64,000 nucleotides of DNA. Source: Sedimentitalea nanhaiensis DSM 24252 (lineage in GTDB: Bacteria; Pseudomonadota; Alphaproteobacteria; Rhodobacterales; Rhodobacteraceae). Positions 33,104-38,935 of the stretch are shown here, piece after piece. The notes below the pieces were generated by a model. That model made no database searches. It was not told where the DNA came from and saw nothing but the letters and a program-made list of their open reading frames with translations. Both the position numbers and the translations under genes were made by a program. The DNA lies in NCBI RefSeq assembly GCF_000473225.1, contig NZ_KI421509.1, positions 3,366,868 through 3,430,867 on the forward strand, given 5' to 3'. The stretch's first letter is position 1; each line of letters begins with the position of its first letter.

Positions 33104-34095
33104 CCCAGGGCCCGGTTCTGATCGATCTGGACGACGATACCCCGCCGGTTCCGGTGGCCGACGCCCCTCCGGTGCCGGACATCGAAGCGCCCACCGGGCA
33201 GGCGATGCAGATGGCCGCCCGCGTCGCCGCGCGCCGCCCCTCGCGGCTGGCGCGGTGGTTCTGGGGGCTGGCGGCGTCGCTGGTTGGGGCGATGATTTCG
33301 GTTGCGGCATGGGATTTTGCCGCCGGGATGGTGGATCGTGCGCCGGTTCTGGGCTGGATCGTCACCGGTCTGATCGCGGCGCTGCTGTTGGTGCTGGCGG
33401 TGATCGCGCTGCGCGAGATGGCGGCGATTTTCCGTCTGGGGCGGATCGACAGCCTGCACCGCGCCGCAGATGCGGCCTTGGCGGATCGGGATCTGGCGCA
33501 AGCCCGTGCGCTGACCGACCGGTTGATCGCGTTCTATGCCGGGCGCGATGACACGCGATGGGGGCGGCAACGGCTGGCCGAGCGTATGGGCGAGCAGTTC
33601 GATGCCGTCGCCCTGTTGCAATTGGCAGAAGACGAGCTGTTGGCGCCGCTGGATGCTGCCGCCAGCCGCGAGGTCGAGGCCGCGGCCCGTCAGGTTGCAA
33701 CCGTCACCGCACTGGTGCCGCTGGCGCTGGCCGACGTGGCGACGGCCCTGGCCGCCAATCTGCGGATGATCCGGCGGGTGGCCGAGATCTATGGCGGGCG
33801 TTCGGGGCTGATCGGCGGGTGGCGTCTGACCCGTGCGGTGTTCACCCATCTGGTGGCAACGGGGGCTGTGGCCGTCGGGGACGATCTGCTGGAACCGGTG
33901 CTGGGGGGGTCGATCCTGTCCAAGCTGTCGCGCCGGTTCGGCGAGGGGCTGGTCAATGGTGCGCTGTCGGCCCGGGTGGGCGTGGCGGCGATGGAGGTCT
34001 GCCGACCCCTGCCATTCAGCCGCAACCGCCGCCCTTCGGTGCGTGGCATCATCGGAAGAGCCCTGAGCGGGGTGTTCGGCACAAAATCCGCCTGA
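33100..34095 (+). CDS. ycjF: YcjF/TIGR01620-family membrane protein (DUF697)
   Basis: 331 residues. Two membrane helices at about 62–82 and 90–112 (LVGAMISVAAWDFAAGMV and LGWIVTGLIAALLLVLAVIA) follow a Pro/Asp-rich cytoplasmic start; the C-terminal DUF697 domain contains TALVPLALADVATALAANLR and MIRRVAEIYGGRSG…. It pairs with YcjX in many proteobacteria and in enterics belongs to the phage-shock regulon; no pspA is in the window. AAAGGAGG precedes the ATG at ideal spacing. Confidence 0.9.
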   Translation: MTQGPVLIDLDDDTPPVPVADAPPVPDIEAPTGQAMQMAARVAARRPSRLARWFWGLAASLVGAMISVAAWDFAAGMVDRAPVLGWIVTGLIAALLLVLAVIALREMAAIFRLGRIDSLHRAADAALADRDLAQARALTDRLIAFYAGRDDTRWGRQRLAERMGEQFDAVALLQLAEDELLAPLDAAASREVEAAARQVATVTALVPLALADVATALAANLRMIRRVAEIYGGRSGLIGGWRLTRAVFTHLVATGAVAVGDDLLEPVLGGSILSKLSRRFGEGLVNGALSARVGVAAMEVCRPLPFSRNRRPSVRGIIGRALSGVFGTKSA

Positions 34096-34174
34096 ATACC
34101 GCCGTGGTTGCGCGTCTGGCATTTAGAACATCAAAAAGATGTGATAGGGTGGCCGACGAATGGGGGGCAGGAAG

Positions 34175-35006
34175 ATGCCGGATACATCCCAAGTGGCCGC
34201 GCATTACAGCAGCGGCGGACTGCTGGAGCGGATTAAGGACGGGTTGGCACGATCGGGTGTTCATCCCCCCCCTGAATCTGGACACTCTGGCGTTGTTTGA
34301 TGAGTTTCACATCGGGGGACGCCAGGCCACCAAAGCCTTTGTGAAAAATCTGCGGATTAATGCCAGCAGCCGGGTGCTGGATCTGGGCTGCGGTCTGGGT
34401 GGCCCCGCGCGTTACATCGCGGGAGCGACGGGGGCGCGGGTGGCGGGGGTGGATTTGTCCGCCGAATTTATCGAAACCGGACGCGAGTTGACCGGCATGG
34501 CCCTGATGGTGGATCTGGTCGATCTGCGGCAGGGGGACATTATGGACCTGCCGTTTCAGGAGGCGCGATTCGACGTCGCCTATATGATTCATGTGGGGAT
34601 GAATATCGGCGACAAGGAGGCACTGTTCGCCGAGGTCGCGCGGGTGCTCAAGCCCGGCGGACAGTTCGGTGTCTATGATGTGATGGCAATGCACGAGAAT
34701 CCGGTGGTCTTTCCGGTACCATGGGCGTCCAAACCCGAACACAGCGCGCTGGCATCGCGGCAAACCTATCGCGAAGCCTTGGACTCCGCCGGTTTCAAGA
34801 TCGTATCCGAAACCGACCGGAGCGAGGCAGCCCAGGCCTTTTTTGTCCGCCTGGCGGCAGCGCAGGCGGCGGCCGGGGGGGCTCCGCCATTGGGGCAGCA
34901 TCTGGTTATGGGCGAGGATTTCCCGGCCAAACGCGCGAACCTGGTCGCGGCGCTGGACGCGGGGCACATAGCCCCGATTGAGATCATCGCCTGTTTGCCT
35001 GAGTAG
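34175..35006 (+). pseudogene. Class I SAM-dependent methyltransferase, frameshifted at a C8 tract
   Basis: From ATG 34175 the frame reads MPDTSQVAAHYSSGGLLERI and KDGLARSGVHP, then runs out of frame at eight consecutive C (34265–34272). With seven C it would join LNLDTLALFDEFHIGGRQAT and the methyltransferase core, where VLDLGCGLGGPARYIA is motif I and DLPFQEARFDVAY motif IV. The N-terminal part is exactly the helical lead-in usual for this family, so the two pieces are one gene of about 276 residues. Possible causes: true frameshift, sequencing error in a homopolymer, slippage-based switching, or programmed shift. Substrate unknown. The codon use of both pieces looks intact. Confidence 0.8.
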
Positions 35007-35083
35007 GGGGCGGTTGATCTGGCGCAAGGCGGCTGCGGCAGCTGTCAATCACTCTGGTTCTGTCAGGAACGAGAGGGCCAGCC

Positions 35084-35800
35084 ATGCCGGAACACGGGCA
35101 CAGCCAGCAGGAAATTGCCGCGCGCATCAATGCGCCCCAGGGGCGGGGCGTGTTGCGCGACCTGGTTTACGGCGCGATTGACGGATCGGTGACCACATTT
35201 GCCATCGTTGCCGGGGTGGCCGGGGCGGGGCTGTCGCCGTTTGTCATCGTTGCGCTGGGGCTGGCCAATGTGCTGGCGGACGGGTTTTCCATGGCGGCGG
35301 GCAACTATTCCGGCACCAAGGCCGAACAGGACAACATCCGCCGCATCCGTGCCGTCGAGGAACGCCACATCGCCCGTTATCCCGAGGGCGAGCGCCGCGA
35401 GGTGGTCGAGATACTGGCGCAAAAGGGTCTGAGCGGTCAGGTGTTGCAGGACGCGGCCCGCGCGATCACCGCCGACAAGGAAAACTGGATCGGTCTGATG
35501 CTGGAAGGCGAGTACGGGCTGGGCGGCATCGATCCGAACCCGATACGCGCGGCGCTGGCGACCTTTGGTGCGTTTCTGGTGGCGGGGATGATCCCGCTGC
35601 TGCCGTTCCTGTTGGCGCTGCCAGAGGCGTTCACCCTGTCCGCAGGTATGACGCTGGGGGTGTTTTTCGCCATCGGCGCCGCAAAGAGCCGCTGGTCGCT
35701 GGCGCCCTGGTGGCGCTCGGGGCTGGAAACCCTGACGATCGGAGGGATTGCGGCCGCCATCGCCTATGGGGTGGGCACCCTGTTTCAGGCCGTGCCCTAG
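35084..35800 (+). CDS. VIT1/CCC1-family metal transporter
   Basis: 238 residues, about five membrane helices. DLVYGAIDGSVTTFAIVAGV and LADGFSMAAGNYSGTKAEQD are the signature motifs of the CCC1/VIT1 family (iron/manganese), with metal-binding acidic residues in the helical loop EERHIARYPEGERREVVEIL. Eukaryotic members load Fe/Mn into vacuoles; bacterial members export Fe/Mn from the cytoplasm. AACGAGAGGGCC precedes the ATG. No Fur or manganese operator is obvious upstream. Confidence 0.88.
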   Translation: MPEHGHSQQEIAARINAPQGRGVLRDLVYGAIDGSVTTFAIVAGVAGAGLSPFVIVALGLANVLADGFSMAAGNYSGTKAEQDNIRRIRAVEERHIARYPEGERREVVEILAQKGLSGQVLQDAARAITADKENWIGLMLEGEYGLGGIDPNPIRAALATFGAFLVAGMIPLLPFLLALPEAFTLSAGMTLGVFFAIGAAKSRWSLAPWWRSGLETLTIGGIAAAIAYGVGTLFQAVP

Positions 35801-35839
35801 CGTCGGTTCGGCGCGTTTTCCCCTGCGGGAATGCGCCAC

Positions 35840-35868
35840 TTTACCCCGGCCACACACGCGCCTATAAC
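35840..35868 (+). promoter_or_regulatory. Predicted promoter of the ileS leader
   Basis: TTTACC (35840–35845), 17 bases, TATAAC (35863–35868). A start about seven bases downstream would fall at 35875–35876, on the ATG of the leader ORF, predicting a leaderless or nearly leaderless transcript. Confidence 0.6.
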
Positions 35869-35875
35869 CGCGCGC

Positions 35876-35926
35876 ATGAGCCGTTTCAGTCTCAGCATTA
35901 TTCGAATTATCTCCCCGGCGCTCTGA
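35876..35926 (+). CDS. Isoleucine-rich leader peptide upstream of ileS
   Basis: A 16-codon ORF encoding MSRFSLSIIRIISPAL, with four Ile codons (ATT ATT CGA ATT ATC) among five consecutive codons. It lies 88 bases before ileS. Ile codons in a short ORF directly upstream of the isoleucyl-tRNA synthetase gene are what a charging sensor would need: uncharged tRNA-Ile would stall ribosomes there. The stop codon sits inside the 5' arm of a strong hairpin (35914–35941). The ATG coincides with the predicted transcription start, recalling the leaderless trpL of Sinorhizobium meliloti. No protein homology is claimed. Confidence 0.65.
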   Translation: MSRFSLSIIRIISPAL

Positions 35927-35941
35927 CCTTCAGACGCCGGG
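35914..35941 (+). promoter_or_regulatory. Hairpin overlapping the leader stop, ileS attenuator candidate
   Basis: CCCGGCGCTCTGA (35914–35926), loop CCT, TCAGACGCCGGG (35930–35941): twelve pairs with one bulged C. A ribosome that finishes the leader would cover the 5' arm, whereas one stalled at Ile codons 8–12 would sit just before it. The sequence after the hairpin (CAAAGGTGTTTG) is not a clean U-tract, so Rho-independent termination is uncertain; a structure switch controlling ileS translation is the alternative. Confidence 0.5.
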
Positions 35942-36013
35942 CAAAGGTGTTTGAGCCATCGCACCGACCGCTTGCTGCAATTTCCGACACGACAGATCCA
36001 AAGGACGCCCCAC

Positions 36014-38935
36014 ATGTGCGCCGACACGACGACCCAGACGCCCGACTATAAATCCACGCTGAACCTGCCGAAAACCGACTTTCCGATGCGCGCGGGCCTG
36101 CCCAAGCGCGAACCCGAGTGGCTGGAACGCTGGGAGCGGATCGGTGTTTACGACCGTCTGCGCGAAAAACAGAACCGCACGCCGTTCACGCTGCATGACG
36201 GGCCGCCCTATGCCAACGGGCATCTGCATATCGGCCACGCGCTGAACAAGACCATCAAGGACATGATCGTACGCAGCCACCAGATGATGGGGTTTGATGC
36301 GCGCTATGTGCCGGGCTGGGACTGTCACGGCCTGCCGATCGAGTGGAAGATCGAGGAACAGTACCGCGCCAAGGGCAAGGATAAGGACGAGGTGCCGATC
36401 AACGATTTCCGCGCCGAATGCCGCAAATTCGCCGAGGGCTGGGTCGAGATCCAGCGCGAGGAGTTCAAGCGTCTGGGCATCACCGGAAACTGGGCCGATC
36501 CGTATCTGACGATGGATTTCCACGCCGAGGCGGTGATCGCCGCCGAGTTCCAGAAATTCCTGATGAACGGCACCCTGTATCAGGGCAGCAAGCCGGTGAT
36601 GTGGAGCCCCGTCGAGCAGACCGCGCTGGCCGAGGCCGAGGTTGAGTATCACGACAAGGAGAGCTTCACCATCTGGGTGAAGTTTGCAGTTTCCGAGGCC
36701 GCGGCAGCCGACCTGAACGGCGCATATGTCGTGATCTGGACCACCACGCCCTGGACCATCCCGTCCAACAAGGGCGTCGTTTATGGTCAGGACTATGACT
36801 ATGGTCTGTATGAGATCACCGGCACGCCGGATGAATCCTGGGCCAATGTCGGCGACCGCTTCATTCTGGCGGACAAGCGGGCCGGGGATGTGATGAGCCG
36901 TGCGCGGCTGGAAGATGGCATGTGGAAACGTGTCAGGGATGTCAGTTCGGATGAATTGGCTGACTTGTCCCTGATGCACCCGTTGGCCGGGGTCGAAGGC
37001 GGCAACGGCGAATGGGATCAGCCGCGCGATTTCCGTGCCGCGCCCTTTGTCACCGACGAGGACGGCACCGGATTCGTGCATTGCGCGCCCAGCCACGGGA
37101 TGGACGAATTCGAGCTGTATCGCGACGCCGGAATGCTGGCCGAGGTGATCACCTATAATGTCGATCCCGATGGCCGTTTCCGCGCCGATTTGCCGCTGTT
37201 TGGCGGCAAGGCGATCCTGAAACCCAACGGCAAGGAAGGCGATGCCAACAAGGCGGTGATCGACAAGCTGGTCGAGGTTGGCGGGCTGCTGGCGCGCGGC
37301 AAGATCAAGCACAGCTATCCGCACAGTTGGCGCTCTAAGGCACCGGTGATCTATCGCAATACGCCGCAGTGGTTCGCGGCCATCGACAAGACGGTGGGCG
37401 ACGGGCTGGACACCTACGGCACCACGATCCGAGAACGGGCGCTGAATTCGATCGATCAGCTGGTGAAATGGACGCCCAAGACCGGGCGCAACCGGCTGTA
37501 TTCGATGATCGAGGCGCGGCCAGACTGGGTGCTGAGCCGCCAACGCGCCTGGGGCGTGCCGCTGACCTGTTTCGTCAAGAAGGGTGCGATGCCCACAGAC
37601 CCCGATTACCTGCTGCGCGACGGGGCGGTGAACGCCCGTATTACCGACGCATTCGAGATCGAGGGTGCGGATGCCTGGTATGCCGAGGGCGCGAAAGAGC
37701 GGTTCATCGGCAATGCCGCCGATCCGGAGGCCTATGAGCAGGTGTTCGACGTGCTGGATGTGTGGTTTGATTCCGGATCGACCCATTCGTTTGTGCTGCG
37801 CGACCGGGCTGACGGAACGGCGGATGGTATCGCGGATGTCTATATGGAGGGCACCGACCAGCATCGGGGCTGGTTCCATTCCTCGATGTTGCAGGCCTGC
37901 GGCACGCTGGGACGCGCCCCTTATCGCAACGTGGTCACGCATGGGTTCACGCTGGATGAAAAAGGCGCGAAAATGTCCAAGTCGCTGGGCAACACCATCG
38001 TGCCGGATACCGTGGTCAAGCAATACGGTGCCGATATCCTGCGCCTGTGGGTGGCCCAGACGGATTATACCAGCGACCAGCGTATCGGCCCCGAAATCCT
38101 GAAAGGGGTTGCCGACAGCTATCGCCGGCTGCGCAACACCATGCGGTTCATGCTGGGCTCGCTAAACGACTTCAGCGACAGTGACCGGATGGATCCCGCC
38201 GAAATGCCCGAACTGGAGCGCTGGGTGTTGCACCGGGTGGCCGAATTGGACGAGGTGGTGCGCAAAGGCTATGGCGCGTTCGATTTCCAGGGCGTGTTTC
38301 AGGCCGTGTTCACCTTTGCCACAGTCGATCTGAGCGCGTTCTATTTCGATATCCGCAAGGACGCGCTGTATTGCGATGGCGACACCGAGCGCCGCCGCGC
38401 GGCACGCACGGTGCTGGATATTTTGTTTCACCGTCTGACCACGTGGCTGGCACCGATCCTGGTGTTCACCATGGAAGAGGTCTGGCTGGAGCGGTTCCCC
38501 GGGGACGACAGTTCGGTTCACCTGACCGATATGCCCGAAACCCCGGCGGAATGGCGGAATGCGGCGTTGGCGGCCAAATGGTCCGAGATCCGCAAGGTGC
38601 GCCGGGTGGTGACCGCCGCGCTTGAGGTGCAGCGCACCGACAAGGTGATCGGTGCCAGCCTTGAGGCCGCGCCGGTGGTGCATGTGCGCGAAGCTGACGT
38701 TCTGGCGGTGCTGAAATCGGTGCCGTTCGATGACATCTGCATCACCTCGGCCATCACCACGACATCCGACCCCAGCCCGGCCGAAGCCTTTCGTCTGCCG
38801 GAAATCGATGGGGTTGGCGTGGTGTTCGAGAAGGCTGAGGGCGAGAAGTGCCAGCGCTGCTGGAAGATCCTGCCGGATGTCGGACGCCACGACCACACCG
38901 GGGTGTGCGACCGATGCGACGCGGCATTGAACTGA
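36014..38935 (+). CDS. ileS: Isoleucyl-tRNA synthetase
   Basis: 973 residues, class Ia. HIGH motif in GPPYANGHLHIGHALNKT, KMSKS motif in KMSKSLGNTIVPD, CP1 editing domain in between (WTTTPWTIPSNKGVVY), and a C-terminal zinc knuckle with paired cysteines (CQRCWKILPD and GVCDRCDAA). The presence of that zinc domain marks the eubacterial, mupirocin-sensitive type rather than the eukaryote-like type; that is an inference from domain layout. ATG at 36014 is preceded by AAAGGACGCCCC. Confidence 0.97.
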   Translation: MCADTTTQTPDYKSTLNLPKTDFPMRAGLPKREPEWLERWERIGVYDRLREKQNRTPFTLHDGPPYANGHLHIGHALNKTIKDMIVRSHQMMGFDARYVPGWDCHGLPIEWKIEEQYRAKGKDKDEVPINDFRAECRKFAEGWVEIQREEFKRLGITGNWADPYLTMDFHAEAVIAAEFQKFLMNGTLYQGSKPVMWSPVEQTALAEAEVEYHDKESFTIWVKFAVSEAAAADLNGAYVVIWTTTPWTIPSNKGVVYGQDYDYGLYEITGTPDESWANVGDRFILADKRAGDVMSRARLEDGMWKRVRDVSSDELADLSLMHPLAGVEGGNGEWDQPRDFRAAPFVTDEDGTGFVHCAPSHGMDEFELYRDAGMLAEVITYNVDPDGRFRADLPLFGGKAILKPNGKEGDANKAVIDKLVEVGGLLARGKIKHSYPHSWRSKAPVIYRNTPQWFAAIDKTVGDGLDTYGTTIRERALNSIDQLVKWTPKTGRNRLYSMIEARPDWVLSRQRAWGVPLTCFVKKGAMPTDPDYLLRDGAVNARITDAFEIEGADAWYAEGAKERFIGNAADPEAYEQVFDVLDVWFDSGSTHSFVLRDRADGTADGIADVYMEGTDQHRGWFHSSMLQACGTLGRAPYRNVVTHGFTLDEKGAKMSKSLGNTIVPDTVVKQYGADILRLWVAQTDYTSDQRIGPEILKGVADSYRRLRNTMRFMLGSLNDFSDSDRMDPAEMPELERWVLHRVAELDEVVRKGYGAFDFQGVFQAVFTFATVDLSAFYFDIRKDALYCDGDTERRRAARTVLDILFHRLTTWLAPILVFTMEEVWLERFPGDDSSVHLTDMPETPAEWRNAALAAKWSEIRKVRRVVTAALEVQRTDKVIGASLEAAPVVHVREADVLAVLKSVPFDDICITSAITTTSDPSPAEAFRLPEIDGVGVVFEKAEGEKCQRCWKILPDVGRHDHTGVCDRCDAALN

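Follow-up and report, generated by a model that had tools for sequence, protein, structure and literature searches.

A short open reading frame (ORF) with several isoleucine codons stands ahead of ileS, the isoleucyl-tRNA synthetase gene, in Sedimentitalea nanhaiensis, and it raises the question of whether ribosomes reading this frame could set the expression of the synthetase gene according to the supply of charged tRNA-Ile. We analysed a stretch of 64,000 nt that carries the locus (the window); all features described below lie on its forward strand.

A leader frame and hairpin upstream of ileS

The ileS gene occupies positions 36014-38935 (TIGR00392, 785 bits against a cut-off of 621). The leader ORF, MSRFSLSIIRIISPAL followed by a stop codon (16 codons, 51 nt), runs from 35876 to 35926, and 87 nt separate its stop codon from the ileS ATG at 36014 (88 in a preliminary description of this DNA). 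That description had also reported isoleucine at codons 8, 9, 11 and 12, a TTTACC-17-TATAAC promoter just ahead of the leader ATG and a 12-pair hairpin whose 5' arm contains the stop codon, and all three are borne out by the sequence. The putative promoter (35840-35868) consists of TTTACC at 35840-35845 and, 17 nt on, TATAAC at 35863-35868, whose end lies 7 nt from the leader ATG; it is absent from a consensus promoter scan that demands a T ending the second hexamer. Isoleucine codons 8 and 9 (35897-35902) run directly into a core of the form CGA-AUU-N5-CCCGG at 35903-35918, in which CGA occupies 35903-35905 and AUU, the candidate specifier codon, 35906-35908. Hairpin A (35914-35941) has 12 pairs and, by folding, one bulged C, and it holds the leader stop codon in its 5' arm. 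It is followed by a second stem, hairpin B (GGUG...CACC, 35946-35965), by a C-rich and G-poor spacer (35966-35999) and by the Shine-Dalgarno region of ileS, AAAGGAC (36000-36006), where relatives share a moderately conserved consensus, AAAGGACGCC, upstream of the ATG. A gene for a VIT1/CCC1-like membrane protein (named by eye, 35084-35800) ends directly upstream of the leader, with similar gene ends upstream in several relatives (L034, L048, L054 and L086), and a tRNA scan found no tRNA genes in the window. The leader folds unremarkably on its own (z -1.9 over 111 nt and z -0.25 over 165 nt), so the evidence for a leader element is comparative.

We compared two samples from the Rhodobacteraceae, one of 114 ileS upstream loci picked by protein similarity (109 distinct) and one of 80 further genomes, drawn from 89 remaining places. 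The exact core, CGAATTANNNNCCCGG, was found in 104 of the 109 distinct upstream regions; in the second sample it was exact in 74 of 80, carried one mismatch in two and was missing from four (L282, L297, L306 and L312). A leader was visible in 108 loci of the first sample, with L126 lacking one. These regions, chosen by protein similarity, provide the less biased conservation figures, together with the open-codon search described below. Codons were tabulated over 181 core-bearing rows, which remained from 195 family rows once five without the core and a number of duplicates had been removed; L175, a coincidence within ribF, was left out. Of these rows, 179 keep CGA and 180 keep AUU, down to the third base. 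When the start was taken as the first ATG to follow the TATA hexamer, it was in frame with CGA-AUU in all 171 testable rows, the other 10 having no recognisable hexamer and not being counted. Non-conservation of the ORF, which the preliminary description had named as grounds for dropping the idea, was therefore not seen.

The -10 hexamer was likewise kept among 108 relatives (TATAAG in 67, TATAAC in 32, others in 9). It lay 6-7 nt from the chosen ATG in 86 of the 108, where the choice of ATG was made partly by hexamer fit, and 6-7 nt from the first downstream ATG in 140 of 171 rows. Because the TATAA box mostly sits 6-7 nt from the start codon, a leaderless transcript is likely; judging from the promoter, RNA polymerase probably starts at the leader AUG itself.

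The isoleucine run behaved differently from the core. Isoleucine was found at codons -3, -2 and -1 from CGA in 122, 144 and 121 of the 181 rows, in a mixture of ATC, ATT and ATA, which argues that the run is preserved as amino acid. Several lineages have no such run, and many leaders, inside and outside the family, have only one or two isoleucine codons. On these comparisons the run, to which codons 8 and 9 of the window leader belong, is a clade feature, and the older core appears to be CGA, the specifier AUU, five bases and a covarying hairpin. The comparison of upstream regions that had been proposed as a check upheld the frame, the core and the hairpin, with the isoleucine run confined to a clade.

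Support for hairpin A came from 66 relatives, in which 92.3% of cells were paired and 82 were double-changed; shuffles gave 24.9 such cells and slid controls no more than 23. The rows had been preselected for a good hairpin, judged on its seven outer pairs and leaving the three inner ones out of account. A covariance model (R1) built from the 66 relatives, with the window sequence excluded, detected the window element at 38.7 bits (E 2.1e-7) and had matches in 61 of 143 genomes of the class (hand count). The S. nanhaiensis genome holds a single exact core site, and its reversed control none. Together, these data strongly support a translated, isoleucine-reading leader in cis to ileS that is probably leaderless.

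Distribution of the element and exchange of its specifier codon

Outside the family, we gathered 99 ileS upstream regions from 124 places (17 of 144 genomes had no ileS match at the threshold). The exact core was present in 25 of these regions and absent from 74, and core variants stood before ileS at L158, L169, L186 and L208. In two genomes of one family (L177 and L181), CGA-AUU and a stem of another sequence lie just before ileS, within the last codons (RRITAASA-stop) of an apparent ribF, so that the leader seems fused to the end of that gene. Across 192 genomes of the class, the exact core occurred 114 times as against 19 in the reversed control. In a phylum-wide set of 249 genomes, the 96 Alphaproteobacteria had 75 occurrences (control, 5) and the 153 genomes from elsewhere in the phylum had 15 (control, 28), all these counts being made by hand, suggesting that the core element is a feature of the Alphaproteobacteria and not of the remaining phylum.

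Reading of 84 exact-core sites yielded 57 with a hairpin and an ATG-started leader ORF; the 27 that failed include at least three (L350, L354 and L387) that precede IlvM-like genes, described further below. Three of the 57 (L331, L360 and L370) were dropped since they appear, by eye, to lie inside rho genes, leaving 54. These sets (L313-L396) were collected by the exact core, and their invariance is therefore by construction. ileS was in the flank of 22 of the 54 sites, a label that denotes a motif in the flank: at L368 an IlvM-like gene intervenes, and at L379 ileS is ~1.2 kb off. The 32 sites without ileS preceded a small protein of ~100 residues (26), a threonine ammonia-lyase-like gene directly (1), weakly NTF2-like genes (2) and AAA_33-like genes (3), where scanning covered some of the members, the rest were assigned by eye, and two tandem pairs share a gene. 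An element dedicated to ileS was thus rejected, the core standing also ahead of IlvM-like and threonine ammonia-lyase-like genes. The weakly NTF2-like neighbours (a sub-threshold DUF6841 match) and the AAA_33 kinase-like ones belong to L318, L332, L326, L341 and L362. In two genomes of one genus, the tandem pairs L325/L335 and L336/L342 each consist of two elements that stand ~180-200 bp from one another ahead of a single IlvM-like gene.

The codon after CGA was found to differ with the gene downstream. CGA-CUU precedes leuA at L443, L445 and L446; CGA-GUU precedes a second IlvM-like copy at L432 and L433; and CGA-AUU-C precedes threonine ammonia-lyase-like genes at L444 and L447, for neither of which an ATG start of the ORF was found. 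The leuA and threonine ammonia-lyase calls at L443-L447 come from partial protein ends and fall below curated cut-offs. leuA was recognised after none of the 54 AUU sites as against three CUU sites (Fisher p 3e-5, or 3e-4 with the two weak-stemmed CUU copies at L432 and L433 counted; the CUU and AUU sets were gathered differently). Those two weak-stemmed CGA-CUU copies (4-5 contiguous pairs) lie farther upstream in the same ORF as CGA-GUU, and the tandem codons possibly sense leucine and valine jointly. CUU or variant elements also stand ahead of IlvM-like genes, not leuA, at L432, L433 and L442.

An open-codon search, which required CGA followed by any codon ending in U and fixed the ends of the stem, returned 238 matches against 99 in the control (counted by hand), a high background. 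We used 148 of the 150 matches listed, leaving out one each from G145 (a repeat of an identical match) and G193 (an overlap). Among these 148, stems of at least nine pairs occurred in 29 (23 AUU, five CUU and one GAU), stems of 7-8 pairs in 25 with mixed codons (five AUU), and 94 were weak-stemmed and spread across all 16 codons. Of the five strong-stem CUU matches, the three whose sites were read lie ahead of leuA; the other two are in G227 and G144. Because the codon after CGA changes with the gene served, we take AUU, CUU or GUU at this position as the probable codon sensed by the element. Two details concern the leuA leaders: that at L445 terminates CGA-AUU-ACC-TAG, and L446 has a second ORF ending RLIGGRWA-stop with another stem sequence (by eye).

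Proposed mechanism and competing accounts

We hypothesize, with a probability of about 0.7, that the leader is a ribosome-read attenuator that senses the charging of one tRNA through essentially one codon. Comparison shows an ORF that keeps its frame, its CGA and specifier codons and hairpin A, together with the genes served and the codon switch; the leaderless start, the stall, the sign of regulation and the output step are inferred, the last because there is neither a U-tract nor a predicted switch at the start site. Three features that leader-peptide attenuation calls for are present: an upstream ORF in cis with a conserved frame, cognate codons (isoleucine for ileS and the threonine ammonia-lyase-like genes, leucine for leuA) and a hairpin that overlaps the end of the leader.

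RNA polymerase would start at the leader AUG and ribosomes would translate the 16-codon ORF; a ribosome whose P site holds CGA and whose A site holds AUU would wait for Ile-tRNA-Ile. CGA, AUU, CUU and GUU are all wobble-decoded. With two such codons in succession and a hairpin five bases on, the step is probably slow and would for that reason be sensitive to charging; slowness of the CGA-AUU pair, as we suppose it, would also explain the near-fixed wobble bases. About 16 bases separate the P-site codon from the leading edge of a bacterial ribosome, which is the length of the core, so a waiting ribosome would cover the 5' arm of hairpin A. The halted ribosome would cover roughly CGAAUUANNNNCCCGG, through that arm, and hairpin A could then not form. 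When isoleucine is plentiful, the ribosome would get to the stop codon inside the hairpin and depart, hairpin A would form, and its state would determine ileS expression.

A bolder version, to which we give somewhat less than even odds, holds that CGA and a wobble-read NUU make up a deliberately slow pair reporting the charging of tRNA-Ile, tRNA-Leu or tRNA-Val, that exchanging this one codon lets the cassette serve ileS, ilvA, leuA or an IlvM-like regulator across the Alphaproteobacteria, and that copies can be stacked (L432/L433). Inhibitory codon pairs in yeast are adjacent suboptimal codons, according to the accessible text of one report (PMC6379720).

For the output at ileS, our best guess is that transcription elongation through the C-rich spacer would be controlled, by Rho or by pausing, with hairpin B added in the Rhodobacteraceae. 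Rho sites are C-rich and G-poor. The excess of C over G at -62 to -14 of ileS was 0.18 across 114 loci, against 0.00 (sd 0.12) for 72 regions that precede window ORFs of at least 200 aa, spurious ORFs included, and this weakly hints that the spacer is a possible Rho-type loading region.

The strongest competitor, which we think rather unlikely, is translational control, whereby ribosomes on the leader, and not transcription, would govern how accessible the ileS start is, through coupling, reinitiation or occlusion. A terminator is not visible, as this account would have it, and 13 of 23 leader ORFs before IlvM-like genes pass the hairpin and end 14-89 nt beyond the next start codon (the start at L374 is doubtful), which favours a translational step there. 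At ileS, however, the leader stop lies 69-142 nt ahead of the start in 108 loci, and predicted start accessibility is nearly equal between ribosome positions (0.47 to 0.49, mean difference 0.016), on which basis sequestration of the ileS start site was rejected. Given the 13 overlapping leaders, a single output mechanism may not fit all members, and the output may be either Rho-type elongation control or translational control.

A classical trp-type attenuator, in which hairpin A is the 1:2 stem, an alternative helix the 2:3 stem and hairpin B the terminator, seems distinctly improbable. Hairpin B does covary: GGYG..CRCC was found in 143 of 181 rows against 74 of 3620 shuffles, its variable pair being C-G in 73, T-A in 50, C-A in 14 and T-G in 6. 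A 9-bp 2:3 helix can also be drawn in some leaders, those with an A before CGCC, and one of eight folds (L058) shows it. However, this helix between the hairpins is without covariation, hairpin B was not seen, by eye, as a conserved part outside the Rhodobacteraceae, and in 122 of 143 rows the 8 nt that follow hairpin B contain no more than two T. No U-tract was found after hairpin A or B, and an intrinsic terminator was rejected for that reason; the missing clean U-tract, which had been singled out beforehand as the weak point, is real and general across relatives. As neither hairpin is terminator-like, classical trp-type termination is unsupported. Of the amino-acid attenuation first proposed for ileS, what stands is the conserved, isoleucine-reading leader; neither hairpin looks like the intrinsic terminator, and the isoleucine run is not part of the deep core.

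Still less probable is an untranslated RNA site bound by protein or tRNA, T-box-like or through autoregulation by IleRS. CGAAUUA is nearly invariant, wobble positions too, as a binding site might be; we found no conserved downstream partner for it, and its pairing with the spacer was rejected as no better than in shuffles. Against such a site, the reading frame is kept in every testable row, the codon becomes leucine or valine according to the downstream gene, and genes other than synthetase genes are served. Scans with Rfam detected no T-box or other family at window positions 34000-38000 (E up to 5) or in 10 related loci (gathering threshold), and such an identity was rejected on these scans. 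Programmed frameshifting at CGA-AUU, stimulated by the hairpin, is hardly credible and was rejected: the five bases from A site to hairpin are like those at frameshift sites, but frames reach the ileS start in the Rhodobacteraceae about as often as in shuffles (-1, 0.32 versus 0.41; +1, 0.56 versus 0.46), open no more than by chance.

Related leaders and the IlvM-like proteins

The attenuator that we favour has a partial precedent. The preliminary description knew of no ileS leader in this group, yet an ileS leader CDS, CCNA_03934, had already been mapped in Caulobacter crescentus in a study that used ribosome profiling, which also noted a short CDS before trpS (PMC4117421). In the accessible part of that paper CCNA_03934, likewise a short CDS ahead of ileS in an alphaproteobacterium, appears only in a figure legend, where it serves as a negative control and where no codon, hairpin or mechanism is described for it; our comparison with it is by description only (PMC4117421). 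Our literature searches did not turn up the codon-switching family.

In the Rhodobacterales, uORFC-8-2 before cysS is likewise a leader ORF with tandem cognate codons ahead of a synthetase gene; as described in the available text, its cysteine codons lie in the first stem, it has a terminal U-run, it concerns cysS only, and a fixed CGA codon is not mentioned there (PMC8632094). The window leader has isoleucine codons, lacks the U-run and precedes ileS. The trp, ilv and leu attenuators and the leaderless trpL of Sinorhizobium share a leaderless or short ORF, codons for the regulated amino acid and hairpins, whereas the ileS element reuses a fixed dicodon and a stereotyped hairpin for several genes, with the codon exchanged and no terminator visible (PMC10117765, as far as its accessible text extends). 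The LEU element and the cys leader peptides of Actinobacteria also precede amino-acid genes, but they have codon runs, and a CGA-specifier core is not described in the portion available; for the cys leaders, a terminator was not seen and Rho was considered by the authors (PMC1262725). The same partial source records ileS T-boxes in Actinobacteria (PMC1262725).

There is also a likeness in logic to the T-box. There, too, one specifier codon is exchanged according to the gene served, whereas the codon of the ileS element would be read by the ribosome within an ORF and the stretches tested had no Rfam T-box match. If the proposal is right, the element would be to the ribosome what the specifier codon is to the T-box, and a single codon would fix the amino-acid specificity of a compact cassette found across the class; the cassette would offer a direct test of how neighbouring wobble codons tune sensitivity to tRNA charging, and of how attenuation proceeds when no terminator is visible. 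Our searches of the open literature turned up no further leader of the CGA-specifier kind for ileS, ilvA or leuA, and this codon-switching class is unnamed in the literature searched, which makes its novelty provisional.

The presence of the element upstream hints that the unnamed family of IlvM-like small proteins takes part in making branched-chain amino acids. A profile of 23 members aligned with Escherichia coli IlvM over 75 columns at 81.8% probability (E 1e-5), as against 0.2% (E 0.26) for the reversed control. A PDB search with one member gave nothing useful, and a profile search of the PDB had an acetolactate synthase small subunit as its top match at only E 0.39. Pfam and NCBIfam over the 23 members gave no more than weak Pfam matches, the best being ACT_5 (E 0.0036), with 3 of 23 at E up to 1. 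Profile search located 41 of these genes (hand count), spread over 38 of 143 genomes and with none in S. nanhaiensis, and hand comparison placed the element within ~260 nt upstream of 35 of the 41. Since 20 of the 41 had gone into the profile itself, these are not fully independent; among the other 21 there were 15 with the element. Those without it are in G171, G267, G142, G225 and G540, together with a second copy in G258; G142 and G225 carry variants lacking the CGA codon, CTC-AUU (L441) and CGG-CUU (L442). In several loci, by eye, the IlvM-like gene adjoins a DUF4743-type gene, a neighbourhood confirmed in one of them.
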